DNA from: JBBIPZ01 sp037442505 [NCBI: Deltaproteobacteria bacterium]
GTDB lineage: Bacteria; CALINM01
NCBI GenBank assembly: GCA_037442505.1
Contig: JBBIPZ010000029.1
Location: 1-19,125 of the forward strand
DNA length: 19,125 bases
Direction: 5' to 3'
Made by a program: the position numbers and the translations under genes. Of this stretch, positions 83 through 14,243 are shown in pieces; position 1 is the stretch's first letter; the number at the start of each line of letters is the position of its first letter. The notes under the pieces are model-generated. The model saw nothing but the letters and a program-made list of their open reading frames with translations. It was not told the DNA's origin and made no database searches.

Positions 83-174
83 ATGGGAGAAATTCTTTAT
101 TTAAATTTAAACAAAATTGGAGTAATATGTGTATTAAATTTTTATGAAAAAGAACGTTAAAGTTGTCGTCGTGT

Positions 175-2223
175 ATGGACTATCATAAAAGAAATTCTTA
201 TATTGCTTTTTTTATTACAGTTACTGCTTATTGTATTGCAAGGTTAATTCCTTTACCAGAGGTCTTAAGCAAGGATGTTTTAAAATTAATAGATCCTGAT
301 AGTTACTATCACTTAAGAAGAATCTTATATACCTTTAGCAATTTCCCAGATATATTAATTTTTGATAATTTTCTTTCTTATCCTGAGGGTGATTTTGTTC
401 CTTGGCCTCCTTTGTTTGATTTTGTGACTGGGTTTCTTTCGTTACCTTTTAAAAACCCCATTTACTTTATCTGCGGTTTTAATTTAATTATTGGTATTGC
501 TATTATAACTGTTGTCTTTATGCATCAACTTCGTAAGTCTTTAAATTCTTCTATTATTTCTTGTTTTTTATTAATCACATCTTACGCTTTTGCCAAGATT
601 AGCAGTTATGGTAGTATAGACCATCATGTTGTTGATGTGTTTTTAGTCACTTCTTTTTACATTTTGTTCGCAAATAAAGCGAATAAAAAATCTGATCTTT
701 TTTTGATATTTGCTATTGTGTGTGCTTCTTTTTTTAATTGGCCTGGTGCACCTTTGTATTATGCGCCTGCTTTTCTTTTGATTTTAGTAAATCTTTACAA
801 TAAGACCTTAGATAATAAAAAAGTTTTGTTCTTAGGAATTGCATTCTTTTTGACTGCTGTTTTTATATCTTTGTATTTTTTGCTAACTACTCACAATGTT
901 CACAGTTATTCTTTTCGCTATTTTTCAGGTTTTCAGAGAGATTTTTGTTTCTTTTTGGGCTTATTACTTATTTTGTTTTATCTATTTTTGATTAAAAAAT
1001 TACCTAAACTTTTTTTCTTTCTGTTTTTCATAGGACTCTTTATATATTTTAACAACATATTTCTTCAAATAATTAATGGATTGGGATATTTAAGTAAGAG
1101 CAGTGAGAGTATTTTGATGAAGATGGTCGAAGAGTCTACACCTATTTTATTTGCTAAAAACAAGTATTTTTTTGATCAATTTATTGAAATGATCGTATTC
1201 TTTACACCTTTCTTGTTAGCTTATCCTTTCATTGCATGGAAATCTTTTAAAGAGAGAAATAATATCATTTTTGTTCTCACCTCTCTCTATTTTTTTATTC
1301 TTACTTGTTTTCAAAAAAGAATGGGAATTTTTTTCATGCCTTTTTTTGCTGTAATTTTGGGAGATTTTGTTATAAATTCTTACAAGAAGCCACAAACTAA
1401 GCTTTTGGCAATTCCAATAGCAACTTATTATTTAATTTTTATTGCTGTGTTCGCTTTAAATTTTAAAGGGCTTTTGCCAAATAAACATATCCTAAAAACA
1501 ATGGATTTTTTATATTACAAAACGCCTTTGCAGGCAGAGTTTGAAAATGGAAATAGCCCTTATGGAATTCTATCTTCTTGGGACTTGGGTCATTATATTA
1601 TTTCTTTAGGCAACAGACCAGCTGCTGCTCATAATTTTATTGCAATCGCAAAAAATAATAAAGAAAAAGAGTTTCTTAAATGTGTCTTTGCAAAAAATGA
1701 AGAAGAAATTATACAAATAATGAGAAATCTTAAAACTCCATTTCTTGTTTTGTCAGACTACGAAGCCTCTTTAAATGTCGGCTGGAGTGTTCTTTTTGAA
1801 GGTAACAATCCCTATATCTATAAAGGAGAGCAGTATTTTCAAGTTACTGAAAATGCAAAAGAGCTCTTTTTATATAATATGCTTTTTGATTATCCAGCTA
1901 ATCAGCTAAGATTTATTTTTGAAAGCGATGATTTATCTTCTGGCGATTTAAAGGTAATATCAGTATACGAACTTGTTAAAGGTGTTAATATAGTATCTCG
2001 CGAACAAGGTAAAATTATTGTAACTCTTAAAACACCTTATAGAGATATCGAACTTGTTTATAATGGTGTTTATAAAGATGGGAGTTATTTTTTCAGGATA
2101 CCTTATTCTACAGAAACAGTCTATGATGTTTACGCTACAGAGATTAAGTTTATTGGCAAAAAAACTATTAATCTGAAATTTTCCGAAAGAGATGTTTTAG
2201 AAGGCACTCTTTTTAAATTATAA
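175..2223 (+). CDS. STT3-family oligosaccharyltransferase-like membrane protein
   Basis: Predicted polytopic glycosyltransferase that would transfer a lipid-linked oligosaccharide to asparagine of exported proteins on the outer face of the inner membrane (family knowledge). Visible hallmarks, numbered from a TTG at 163: a DPDSYYHLR segment (residues 44-52) matching the first-loop DxD metal/catalytic motif; a WPPLFDF segment soon after; DHH at 153-155; VEESTP near 322-327, matching the external-loop acidic 'xxxE' motif; and SWDLGHYI around 472, the bacterial variant of the WWDYG acceptor-binding motif, followed by GNRPAAAHNF. The first 430 or so residues are strongly hydrophobic with about a dozen membrane segments. 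The remaining 200 form a soluble C-terminal domain. The start is uncertain: ATG 175 is used, TTG 163 is in frame, and neither has a good Shine-Dalgarno. No other glycosylation gene is in the window. It ends at a hairpin and is convergent with the parB-side operon. Confidence 0.85.
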   Translation: MDYHKRNSYIAFFITVTAYCIARLIPLPEVLSKDVLKLIDPDSYYHLRRILYTFSNFPDILIFDNFLSYPEGDFVPWPPLFDFVTGFLSLPFKNPIYFICGFNLIIGIAIITVVFMHQLRKSLNSSIISCFLLITSYAFAKISSYGSIDHHVVDVFLVTSFYILFANKANKKSDLFLIFAIVCASFFNWPGAPLYYAPAFLLILVNLYNKTLDNKKVLFLGIAFFLTAVFISLYFLLTTHNVHSYSFRYFSGFQRDFCFFLGLLLILFYLFLIKKLPKLFFFLFFIGLFIYFNNIFLQIINGLGYLSKSSESILMKMVEESTPILFAKNKYFFDQFIEMIVFFTPFLLAYPFIAWKSFKERNNIIFVLTSLYFFILTCFQKRMGIFFMPFFAVILGDFVINSYKKPQTKLLAIPIATYYLIFIAVFALNFKGLLPNKHILKTMDFLYYKTPLQAEFENGNSPYGILSSWDLGHYIISLGNRPAAAHNFIAIAKNNKEKEFLKCVFAKNEEEIIQIMRNLKTPFLVLSDYEASLNVGWSVLFEGNNPYIYKGEQYFQVTENAKELFLYNMLFDYPANQLRFIFESDDLSSGDLKVISVYELVKGVNIVSREQGKIIVTLKTPYRDIELVYNGVYKDGSYFFRIPYSTETVYDVYATEIKFIGKKTINLKFSERDVLEGTLFKL

Positions 2224-8088: not shown

Positions 8089-8238
8089 TTATTTACCAGA
8101 CACAACTGGGGTTAAATATTTTCTACCCTTTCTTCTTCTATTTTTAAGTACTTCAATTCCTCCAGCAGAACTGTTTCTTTTTCTAAAACCATGGGTTCTT
8201 TTTCTTTTTGTGTTAGATGGCTGATAAGTCCTTTTCAT
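8089..8238 (-). CDS. rpmH: 50S ribosomal protein L34
   Basis: A 49-codon gene whose product begins [18 protein letters not shown], the nearly invariant start of L34, followed by a basic tail with [11 protein letters not shown]34 is a small 23S rRNA-binding protein of the large subunit. The C-terminus continues YLTPVVSGK, a few residues longer than the usual 44-46. A strong AGGAGG ribosome-binding site is at 8244-8249, five bases before the ATG. It is the first gene of the minus-strand run. The rpmH-rnpA-yidD-yidC order is the classical origin-proximal arrangement. Confidence 0.96.
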
Positions 8239-8268
8239 AAACGCCTCCTATTCTTACGTAAGCTATTA

Positions 8269-8297
8269 ATTTTGTTTCTTTTTTTTTAAAAAGTCAA
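8269..8297 (-). promoter_or_regulatory. Putative sigma-70-type promoter for rpmH operon
   Basis: On the minus strand TTGACT (complement of 8292-8297) is followed after 17 bases by CAAAAT (complement of 8269-8274). Against TTGACA/TATAAT this is 5/6 and 4/6. The expected transcript start is near 8262, giving a leader of about 24 nt with the AGGAGG site. A perfect 10-bp palindrome, CTTACGTAAG (8253-8262), sits at the predicted start point. Confidence 0.5.
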
Positions 8298-8306
8298 GAA
8301 TTAATT

Positions 8307-8321
8307 TGGCAATTTTTGCCA
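8307..8321. promoter_or_regulatory. Perfect inverted repeat in the rpmH-dnaA divergent region
   Basis: TGGCAA-TTT-TTGCCA is a perfect 6-bp inverted repeat with a 3-base centre. It lies just upstream of the rpmH -35 and about 45 bases upstream of the dnaA -35. It could be a repressor or activator site, but no regulator can be named. No U-run follows it, so it is unlikely to be a terminator. Confidence 0.35.
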
Positions 8322-8363
8322 GAGTAAGTAAATTCAAGGTAAAGATTAAAAAGATTTTAATGC

Positions 8364-8392
8364 TTGAATAGAATAAAATATTCTGGTAAATT
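8364..8392 (+). promoter_or_regulatory. Putative dnaA promoter, apparently leaderless
   Basis: TTGAAT (8364-8369), a 17-base spacer and TAAATT (8387-8392) match sigma-70 consensus at 4/6 and 4/6 with ideal spacing. Only 8 bases separate the -10 from the dnaA ATG at 8401. A transcript would start at or within a couple of bases of the ATG. There is no Shine-Dalgarno before this ATG, in keeping with a leaderless message. Confidence 0.45.
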
Positions 8393-8400
8393 ACTCAAGA

Positions 8401-9693
8401 ATGGAAAATCTCTGGAAACGTTTTTTAGAAACAGCAAAATCAAAATTCAATCCAACCACACTGGAGACATGGATTATACCGATGGAAATCATAAAAGCAG
8501 AAGGAGAAACATTAACGCTTTTTGTACCAAATGACTTCTTTAAGGATTGGATTTTAGAAAACCATATTGAACAAATTAAGGAAATATTTTCCGAATTACT
8601 GGAAAAAAACATAGAGATACTTCTCGAAACAACTAAAAAAGAGAAAAAAGAAAACACAAATGAAGTTTTTCATCCAAAACTTGTTCATAAATACACTTTC
8701 GAAAATTTCATTAAAGGCAGATCTAACGAATTTGCTTATGCAGCATCACAGGCAGTTGTGGATAAACTTGGCAGTTTATATAATCCCCTACTCATCTATA
8801 GTAATGTAGGTCTGGGCAAAACTCATCTAATAACGGCTATTGGACACGAGGTTTATAGAAGATACAGAAACAAAAAGATACTGTATTACAGAGCAGTTGA
8901 GTTTATGAACGAACTAATTACATGCATCAGATTTCAAAAAATGCATGAATTCAGGGAAAAGTTTAGAGACGCTGATCTACTTTTAGTGGATGATATCCAG
9001 TTTATAGCTGGCAAAGATACAACTCAAGAAGAATTCTTTAATACTTTCAATATGTTATATGAGATGAAGAAACAAATCGTTATGACCAGTGACAGATTTC
9101 CAAAACAGATACCAAACATAGAAGATAGACTAAAAAACAGATTTGAATGGGGTTTGACAGCAGACATTCAACCCCCTGAATACGAAACACGTATAGCTAT
9201 ACTAAAAAATAAAGCAAAATATCACAATGTTGTTCTTCCTGATGATGTTGCAAACTACATAGCTGAAAATATTTGCAATAATATTAGAGAGATGGAAGGG
9301 GCATTAATAAAAATACTTGCATATTGTTCTTTAACAAAACAAAAAATTTCCTTAGAAACAGCAAAATCACAACTAACAGATTTTATTACCAAAAACAATG
9401 GCATAATTACAATAGAAGGCATACAAAAAGCTGTTGCAGACTATTTTCAAATAAAAATAACCGATCTAAAATCTCAAAAAAAATTAAAAAATATCGCAAT
9501 ACCAAGACAAATTGCAATTTACTTATGCAGAAAACATACTAATCTCTCATTAAACGAAATAGGTCAAAAATTTGGAGGAAAAGACCACTCAACAGTAATA
9601 CATTCTATAAACAAAGTAACAAAAAAGTTAGAAGAAGACAACGAAACAAAAAAACACATAGAAAATATCAACAATTTGTTGATAAAATATTGA
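8401..9693 (+). CDS. dnaA: Chromosomal replication initiator DnaA
   Basis: A 430-residue AAA+ initiator that binds DnaA boxes and opens oriC. Domain I: residues 1 to about 78, with LWKRFLETAKSKFNPTTLETWI typical of the DnaB/DiaA-interacting domain. Domain II is very short (about 79-92). Domain III (about 93-330) has Walker A NVGLGKTH (135-142), Walker B LLLVDDIQF (193-201), the sensor I region and DRLKNRF (243-249). Domain IV is the DNA-binding domain with IGQKFGGKDHSTVIHSI, in which lysine replaces the commoner arginine before DHST. ATG 8401 has no ribosome-binding site, and a promoter ends 8 bases upstream. The last codons overlap a DnaA-box-like inverted pair. Confidence 0.97.
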   Translation: MENLWKRFLETAKSKFNPTTLETWIIPMEIIKAEGETLTLFVPNDFFKDWILENHIEQIKEIFSELLEKNIEILLETTKKEKKENTNEVFHPKLVHKYTFENFIKGRSNEFAYAASQAVVDKLGSLYNPLLIYSNVGLGKTHLITAIGHEVYRRYRNKKILYYRAVEFMNELITCIRFQKMHEFREKFRDADLLLVDDIQFIAGKDTTQEEFFNTFNMLYEMKKQIVMTSDRFPKQIPNIEDRLKNRFEWGLTADIQPPEYETRIAILKNKAKYHNVVLPDDVANYIAENICNNIREMEGALIKILAYCSLTKQKISLETAKSQLTDFITKNNGIITIEGIQKAVADYFQIKITDLKSQKKLKNIAIPRQIAIYLCRKHTNLSLNEIGQKFGGKDHSTVIHSINKVTKKLEEDNETKKHIENINNLLIKY

Positions 9694-9799
9694 TAACTTT
9701 TTTATAAAAAAACAAATTGTTTATAACTTTTAAATTACTAACATTTTATAAACATTGATTTTTTAAAAAATTACAATAACTTATGAATACTTATTAACA
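9665..9799. other. oriC: Candidate oriC: cluster of variant DnaA boxes, AT-rich
   Basis: Between the end of dnaA and dnaN are several 9-mers related to TTATCCACA. Minus-strand TTATCAACA is at 9677-9685, TTATCAATA at 9688-9696 and TTATAAACA at 9718-9726. Plus-strand TTATAAACA is at 9746-9754 and TTATTAACA at 9791-9799, with ATATCAACA at 9665-9673. Four fit TTATNAACA exactly. The first two form a perfect inverted repeat, TATCAACA-ATT-TGTTGATA (9666-9684). Boxes on the left point one way and those on the right the other. The surrounding DNA is almost pure A/T, suitable for unwinding. The dnaA-dnaN gap is a standard oriC site, and gene polarity diverges just upstream, at the rpmH/dnaA switch. Confidence 0.65.
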
Positions 9800-9842
9800 T
9801 TTAAACACAAACTAAAACTAATACTTAACTAAGGAGATAATT

Positions 9843-10922
9843 ATGAAAGTAATAGTAAAGAAAGACAAACTCATAAAAGCATTACAAAAAGTTCAAGGTG
9901 TAATAGAAAAAAGAACAACACTCCCAATATTAAATAATATACTCTTTGAAACAGACTCCAACCTTACCATAAAAGCCACCAATTTAGAGGTTTCCATTAT
10001 CGTAAAAGTAGATGCAAACATTATAGACAATGGAAGTCTATGTGTACCTGCCAAAAAAATATTTGAAATCGTAAGATTACTTCCAGAAAACGAAGTAACT
10101 ATAGAACAAATCGACAAAAACATACTTATAAGCAACGGAAAAATAAACTATAAACTCTTTACATATCCAACAGAAGATTTTCCCGCAATAAAAACTATAA
10201 ACAAGAATCACAAAATTAGCATTGACAGAGAAAAGTTTTTCGAATCAATAAAAAAAGTCGAATATACAATTTATCCCGACGAATCAAGAGAAAGTTTAAA
10301 CGGTGTTTTTATGCACAAAGTCGATAACAAACTCAGATTTGTAGCATCAGATAGCTTTAGATTAGCCTACAATGAATTTGTTTTTGAAAAAGAATGCGAA
10401 GACATCTTAATACCTAAAAAAACAGTTAATGAGCTTACTAAAATACAGTCTGACATAGAAGAAAAAGAGATAAATCTCTATATCGAAGACAAAACAGTTA
10501 TGGTAGAACTTGGAAATGCTACATTAATATCAAAACTAAAAGAAGCAAAATTTCCAAACTATAAAGAGGTTATACCTAATAATCCATATAAGCTTTACTT
10601 AGATAAAAATGCCATACTTGACACATTAAAAAGAGTCTCGATAATTTCTGATGAGACAACCAGAAGCGTGATACTTAACATAAATGAGGATAAGCTTGTT
10701 ATAAAAAGCAGTAATGCAGAGTTAGGTTTTGCAGAAGAGGAAATGTCTGCAAAATTTGAAGGTGTACCTTTTGAAATTTGTTTTAACGCAAAATTTTTGA
10801 TAGAAGCAATAGAATCTATTTATTCCGAAACGATTATAATAGATCTAAAAGATGGACAATCAGCAGCAATGCTTTCGGGAGATGAGAGCTACAAAGCTGT
10901 TTTGATGCCAATAAGAATGTAA
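9843..10922 (+). CDS. dnaN: DNA polymerase III sliding clamp, beta subunit
   Basis: A 359-residue beta clamp, a homodimeric ring that tethers the replicative polymerase and recruits other DNA-processing proteins. The N-terminal pattern KDKLIKALQKVQGVIEKRTTLPILNNILFE and the C-terminal VLMPIRM, next to the hydrophobic binding pocket, are typical of DnaN. Length matches the usual 360-380, with three repeated clamp domains. AAGGAG at 9831-9836, seven bases before the ATG, is a strong ribosome-binding site. A TACAAT at 9772-9777 could be a -10 element, but its -35 is poor. recF follows after 4 bases. Confidence 0.96.
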   Translation: MKVIVKKDKLIKALQKVQGVIEKRTTLPILNNILFETDSNLTIKATNLEVSIIVKVDANIIDNGSLCVPAKKIFEIVRLLPENEVTIEQIDKNILISNGKINYKLFTYPTEDFPAIKTINKNHKISIDREKFFESIKKVEYTIYPDESRESLNGVFMHKVDNKLRFVASDSFRLAYNEFVFEKECEDILIPKKTVNELTKIQSDIEEKEINLYIEDKTVMVELGNATLISKLKEAKFPNYKEVIPNNPYKLYLDKNAILDTLKRVSIISDETTRSVILNINEDKLVIKSSNAELGFAEEEMSAKFEGVPFEICFNAKFLIEAIESIYSETIIIDLKDGQSAAMLSGDESYKAVLMPIRM

Positions 10923-10926
10923 TGGA

Positions 10927-14243
<3,317 letters not shown>

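Follow-up and report, generated by a model that had tools for sequence, protein, structure and literature searches.

The closest described counterparts of the locus analysed here are origins situated between dnaA and dnaN. Those of the Bacillota (the incC type of B. subtilis and oriC2 of C. difficile) share with it both this position and an AT-rich gap. The Epsilonproteobacterial oriC2, as excerpted from PMC5043019, also occupies the dnaA-dnaN gap and carries two outward (tail-to-tail) arrays of DnaA boxes, as does the window, by which we mean the whole stretch of 19,125 nucleotides under analysis. According to the same excerpt, a lysine at the position of E. coli R432 is usual in DnaA of the Epsilon- and Deltaproteobacteria, as is S435, and both residues are present in the DnaA of the window. 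The likeness does not extend to the box itself or to residue 399. The Epsilonproteobacterial box has a TTCAC core with a strict T at position 5 and mostly C at position 6 (C6 to A is rare), whereas in the exact boxes of the window position 5 varies and A6 is constant, and the fixed combination of T5 and C6 is found in none of the window's four exact boxes; Epsilonproteobacterial DnaA retains R399, where the window has lysine (PMC5043019, in the part available).

A box of the window's kind is also described from a different setting. One predicted box in the linear-chromosome origin of Cyanothece 51142 is TTATCAACA, a sequence shared with the window, but that origin lies between two hypothetical genes, away from dnaA, and mixes the box with TTATCCATA, unlike the arrangement here (PMC4674748, in part). 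This paper is the one informative match that searches of partial texts for TTATNAACA-type boxes gave, the B. subtilis scoring matrix in the supplement of PMC4447404 falling outside its coverage. A TTATMCACA motif from the same search was discarded, as it is not an A6 box. Published origin searches, as far as the excerpts go, use TTATCCACA or TTWTNCACA as the reference box and allow one or two mismatches. Origins that have no canonical box, such as that of the window, would be easier to find if A6 were counted as a box class in its own right.

The dnaA-dnaN stretch of the window is very probably the replication origin of this bacterium. We put at roughly 85% the probability that positions 9660-9842 form the DnaA-binding and unwinding part of oriC in an AT-rich bacterium, with two outward arrays and boxes in which A at position 6 is tolerated.

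Gene context and composition of the gap

The dnaA gene (8401-9693, plus strand, 430 aa) is identified by alignments and by the NCBIfam model TIGR00362 (530.4 bits, cutoff 343.9), and the right border of the gap is formed by dnaN, the sliding clamp gene (9843-10922, plus strand; TIGR00663, 275.8 bits, cutoff 137.65). The names dnaA, dnaN and parB are assigned by NCBIfam and mnmE by a solved-structure match; the remaining neighbouring genes bear names that we assume from reading alone. A recF-like protein follows (10927-11832, plus strand), with a length of only 301 aa and a score below its NCBIfam cutoff (120.8 of 172 bits). At the left of the window, an STT3-like oligosaccharyltransferase (163-2223, plus strand) has a sole NCBIfam match, to an archaeal subfamily model and far under its cutoff (143.9 of 450 bits).

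The gap between the two genes (9694-9842) is the proposed origin core and unwinding region. It has 14.8% GC, and among all 149-bp stretches of the window the one poorest in GC is located here (13.4%, compared with 20.1% for the lowest stretch elsewhere). The least stable 100-bp stretch begins at 9683; measured over 30 or 60 bp, stability is slightly lower at the start of recF (10949-10982) than in the gap. All genes to the left of dnaA except the first are transcribed leftwards, and from dnaA onward the window's gene map is mostly rightward. The minimum of the AT and purine skews is at 8287 and that of the GC skew at 10277, the gap falling between them as judged over these 19 kb only. A DnaA-box cluster above chance level (see below), an AT-rich unwinding region and a switch of strand and skew at dnaA/dnaN, three of the features by which an oriC is recognised, occur within the 19 kb, and site cluster, gene context and skew together fit an origin in the dnaA-dnaN gap.

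The same switch of gene strand and skew bears on the possibility that the sites are mainly transcriptional, acting in a dnaN promoter or in DnaA autoregulation, with the true origin elsewhere. DnaA doubles as a transcription factor (PMC4447404, in excerpt) and weak promoter-like sites are present in and near the gap, but across 8100-10000 such sites are no commoner than in shuffled sequence (9 against 8.7), and the strand and skew switch located here speaks for an origin. We consider a mainly transcriptional role quite improbable, although the transcription and origin roles are not mutually exclusive. A reading of the gap as a terminator or RNA element was also rejected, the sole terminator-like stem in 8100-10000 being at 8307-8321, and an Rfam scan of the whole window gives two tRNAs only, with no RNA element in the gap. 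A search of genome contigs with the window's DnaA returns no close relative, its only matches being from a Lachnospiraceae MAG (40%) and from two Carboxylicivirga (34-35%); among viral contigs, GyrB finds a relative on one contig of the viral collection and the Lon-like protein finds nothing.

Arrangement and clustering of the DnaA boxes

The places, orientation, spacing and clustering of the sites are direct observations. Motif searches locate four exact TTATNAACA sites exactly where they had been reported, namely TTATCAACA at 9677-9685 and TTATAAACA at 9718-9726 on the minus strand, and TTATAAACA at 9746-9754 and TTATTAACA at 9791-9799 on the plus strand. All four contain TTAT, A6 and C8, with position 5 being C, A, A and T respectively. 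Their order is minus, minus, plus, plus, with the TTAT ends facing each other, so that they diverge and do not converge as previously stated. Sites with one mismatch include ATATCAACA at 9665-9673 (plus strand, one mismatch to TTATNMACA) and TTATCAATA at 9688-9696 (minus strand), which lacks C8 and stands head-to-tail with 9677-9685 at a spacing of 2 bp. A further minus-strand site, TTATAAAAA at 9699-9707, 2 bp from the last, is poor, lacks C8 and may be due to chance. On the plus strand, the weak box TTACTAACA at 9735-9743 is head-to-tail with 9746-9754, also at 2-bp spacing, and a triplet with 10-bp periodicity is opened by the weak box TTATGAATA (9781-9789, no C8), has the exact box 9791-9799 in the middle, and is closed by the weak box TTAAACACA (9801-9809). 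The inverted repeat noted earlier in the last dnaA codons (9666-9684; TATCAACAA/TTGTTGATA) is present and perfect, with arms of 9 bp around a 1-nt centre and not of 8 bp; in it the weak plus box at 9665-9673 faces the exact minus box.

The preliminary description was also right that no canonical site is among these boxes, as TTATNCACA is absent from 9660-9842. It occurs in the window only at 8757-8765 (inside dnaA) and at 10309-10317 (inside dnaN), and these two copies are approximately at chance level, given 0.9 expected outside the gap. The window's 8.4 kb upstream of dnaA hold no exact TTATNCACA, and a canonical box in the gap or upstream, which is the canonical R-type criterion, is found at neither place. 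The copy at 8757-8765 (minus strand) is a perfect canonical TTATCCACA within the dnaA coding region and may be a chance occurrence. A bipartite origin with further boxes immediately before dnaA was considered and rejected, since 8246-8400 contains no match to TTATNMACA at up to one mismatch.

The cluster is far denser than composition predicts. In 9660-9842 there are four exact TTATNAACA sites against 0.09 expected, a count reached in 0 of 1000 dinucleotide-preserving shuffles, and with the textbook motif TTATNCACA, which was not chosen from the data, five sites with at most one mismatch against 0.45 expected (again 0 of 1000 shuffles). Any 183-bp stretch elsewhere in the window has a maximum of two sites by either measure (starts at 9401-9900 excluded), and TTATCCACA with up to two mismatches has seven matches at the gap and at most four elsewhere in the window. 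Sites within one mismatch of TTATNMACA number 11 in 9660-9842, a total unreached in 2000 shuffles, but with a chance expectation of 1.7-1.9 some of the weak sites may mean nothing. Same-strand pairs with starts 9-12 bp apart number five against 0.04 expected and are likewise unreached in 2000 shuffles; they comprise two leftward pairs (9677/9688 and 9688/9699) and three rightward pairs (9735/9746, 9781/9791 and 9791/9801), of which three of the five include a site without C8. When C8 is required there remain seven sites (1.2 expected) and two pairs (0.02 expected), the pair count being matched in 0.25% of 2000 shuffles. The proposal of an origin with TTATNAACA-form boxes is supported by the dnaA-dnaN position, the gene-strand switch, the lowest GC content in the window and the head-to-tail pairs, the last of these being weaker if C8 is required.

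These counts also bear on a reading of the A6 sites as mainly the product of AT drift without selection, that is, as chance words in a gap of 15% GC. The gap is indeed extremely AT-rich, and TTATNAACA also exceeds expectation in the remainder of the window, with eight occurrences outside the gap against a dinucleotide expectation of 2.2, which makes some of its abundance background. However, shuffles of the gap itself yield only the 0.09 exact sites given above, the head-to-tail spacing is enriched, and in the survey described below A6 is strongly preferred over T6 to an extent that dinucleotide composition does not explain in the 90 regions. We judge unselected drift very improbable. Two TTATAAACA copies are found at 2055-2063 and 2067-2075 (minus strand), head-to-tail and 12 bp apart, near the end of the STT3-like gene.

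Boxes 2 bp apart are described as ideally spaced for a DnaA filament (PMC8235120, in excerpt). On the preferred reading, DnaA of the window is predicted to bind a leftward array at the dnaA end (9677, 9688 and 9718) and a rightward array toward dnaN (9735, 9746, 9781, 9791 and 9801), in which head-to-tail neighbours one helical turn apart would nucleate filaments. The rightward triplet would then drive a filament onto the single strand immediately ahead of dnaN and open the AT-rich gap, giving the predicted unwinding and origin activity. An unwinding module of the BUS type is defined as a DnaA box, a spacer of up to 16 and at least three NAN triplets (PMC8287927, in part). A candidate DnaA-trio run (AAC-TAA-AAC-TAA-TAC, 9810-9824, plus strand) directly follows the triplet, its first TAA lying 13 bp from box 9791-9799. 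The five NAN triplets after 9791-9799/9801-9809 agree with the rule, but as many are found in 11% of 400 shuffles (P 0.11), so the run is not significantly above chance and is not counted as evidence for an origin.

A at position 6 in a survey of dnaA-dnaN regions

The frequency of A6 boxes elsewhere was surveyed at 92 loci (L009-L100) with a recognisable DnaA helix, drawn from the phylum to which a Lachnospiraceae genome (G001) belongs and which we take to be the Bacillota; this phylum is possibly a poor guide, since the DnaA of the window is distant from every member (nearest tree distance 1.29). The loci include 22 of K type, which are all the pattern matches in 299 genomes, and 70 of R type taken from the 243 genomes that gave a match, 30 of them as returned by the search and 40 hand-picked with a leaning to AT-rich codons. 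Two loci at contig edges (L027 and L044) were dropped, leaving 90 usable regions, and boxes were counted on fixed regions.

The canonical TTATNCACA is found 112 times in these regions against 2.4 expected, and TTATNAACA 67 times against 4.6, making it the commonest one-step variant (the next has 33). The T6 form TTATNTACA occurs seven times (3.7 expected) and the G6 form TTATNGACA twice (1.4 expected), while by fold enrichment some variants at positions 1 and 3 equal or exceed A6. A6 boxes are present in 45 of the 90 regions, comprising 27 of 69 R-type and 18 of 21 K-type regions. Between relatives C and A replace each other at the same offset: at -17 from the dnaA stop L022 and L024 differ from L023 and L025, one relative having C and another A, and at offset 66-67 L023 differs from the other three; among these four loci TTATCAACA occupies in one genome the place that TTATCCACA has in another. 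Given this enrichment and the exchange in place, A6 looks like an enriched and interchangeable box variant, a normal alternative DnaA box in the survey phylum.

The A6 variant is carried also by other bacteria with ordinary DnaA, and as such the finding in the window is sound but mostly ordinary. The boxes would have A6 instead of C6 because DnaA in general accepts A at this position more readily than T or G, and in an AT-rich genome they would drift towards the base that is accepted, C8 staying in the four exact boxes. If this tolerance is general, C6 should perform at least as well as A6, and T6 should fail, in a comparison of the boxes TTATCAACA, TTATAAACA, TTATTAACA, TTATCCACA and TTATCTACA.

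Minus boxes tend to precede plus boxes in the survey phylum, as they do in the window, but this is a tendency only (median offset 46 for 80 minus boxes and 79 for 99 plus boxes). The number of boxes in the window is unremarkable, with as many exact sites in 10 of the 90 regions and as many with at most one mismatch in four. Loose head-to-tail pairs number five in the window, compared with a maximum of four in the 90 regions, the window's gap being more AT-rich. Nine of the 90 regions have at least two A6 boxes and zero C6 boxes in the gap. All eight of these that are readable upstream of dnaA retain C6 boxes there (seven within 300 bp and one at 1.1-1.5 kb; on the contig of L018 no DNA precedes dnaA, and for L029 the contig end was counted as upstream on the assumption of a circular contig), whereas none was found in the window, whose DnaA is distant.

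Lysines in the DNA-binding domain of DnaA

The domain IV helix of the window's DnaA reads GGKDHSTVIHS, and the protein has lysine at 399 and 432 and serine at 435 in E. coli numbering (residues 397-408 were numbered by hand on an alignment with solved chains). The preliminary description noted GGKDHST in place of GGRDHST and suggested that the recognition sequence may have shifted in this lineage. A broader form of this idea is a lineage-specific change of DnaA (K399, K432 and S435) toward A6, such that C6 boxes are no longer needed. The lack of exact TTATNCACA in the gap and 8.4 kb upstream would fit such a change, given the upstream C6 boxes of all eight readable A6-only regions, as would K399 and, where regions are AT-rich, the raw link between K432 and A6: below 34% GC, A6 boxes are present in 17 of 18 regions with K and in 21 of 42 with R (Fisher P 0.001).

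Other observations weigh against it. K at the 432 position, usual in the Epsilon- and Deltaproteobacteria (PMC5043019), is also found in 22 of the 299 genomes of the Lachnospiraceae phylum and, by alignment, in the solved DnaA 1l8q/2hcb, which we take to be that of Aquifex. Two loci (L013 and L014) have GGKDHSTVIH as in the window, yet contain TTATCCACA in the gap beside one TTATTAACA each, and R-type DnaAs also occur with TTATNAACA boxes. When the seven K clades are set against their nearest three R relatives, two have a higher A6 share than the relatives and five a lower one (the R sets overlap), and the odds ratio for K and A6 stratified by GC is 1.4; we read the raw association as probably reflecting shared ancestry and AT content.

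Residue 399 is less usual, with lysine in the window and arginine in every one of 90 comparators, which belong to a single phylum (96 sequences were given, of which L002, L003, L009, L093 and L099 were unmatched by the search expression). The solved chain 3pvp_A, presumably M. tuberculosis DnaA, also aligns lysine here, so K399 is not unprecedented. The M. tuberculosis box, YWRTCCACA (PMC5043019, in excerpt), is relaxed at its 5' end, whereas the exact boxes of the window keep TTAT. In the available part of PMC5742627, which gives 1j1v as the solved chain of E. coli DnaA, R399 contacts the 5' TTA in the minor groove and not position 6, and TTAT is intact in four of the four exact boxes of the window. 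We therefore regard a lineage-specific change of recognition as unlikely, and a specificity shift caused by GGK is not supported by these comparisons.

A related and doubtful reading is that the window holds an origin without any canonical C6 boxes, all-A6 and one-sided, in which a DnaA with lysines in place of both base-reading arginines (399 and 432) would rely on dense one-turn head-to-tail arrays to compensate for weaker contacts with single boxes. If this were true, the DnaA of the window would be a natural test of drift in box recognition. In the phylum of Carboxylicivirga, the strict helix pattern is matched in 3 of 61 genomes.
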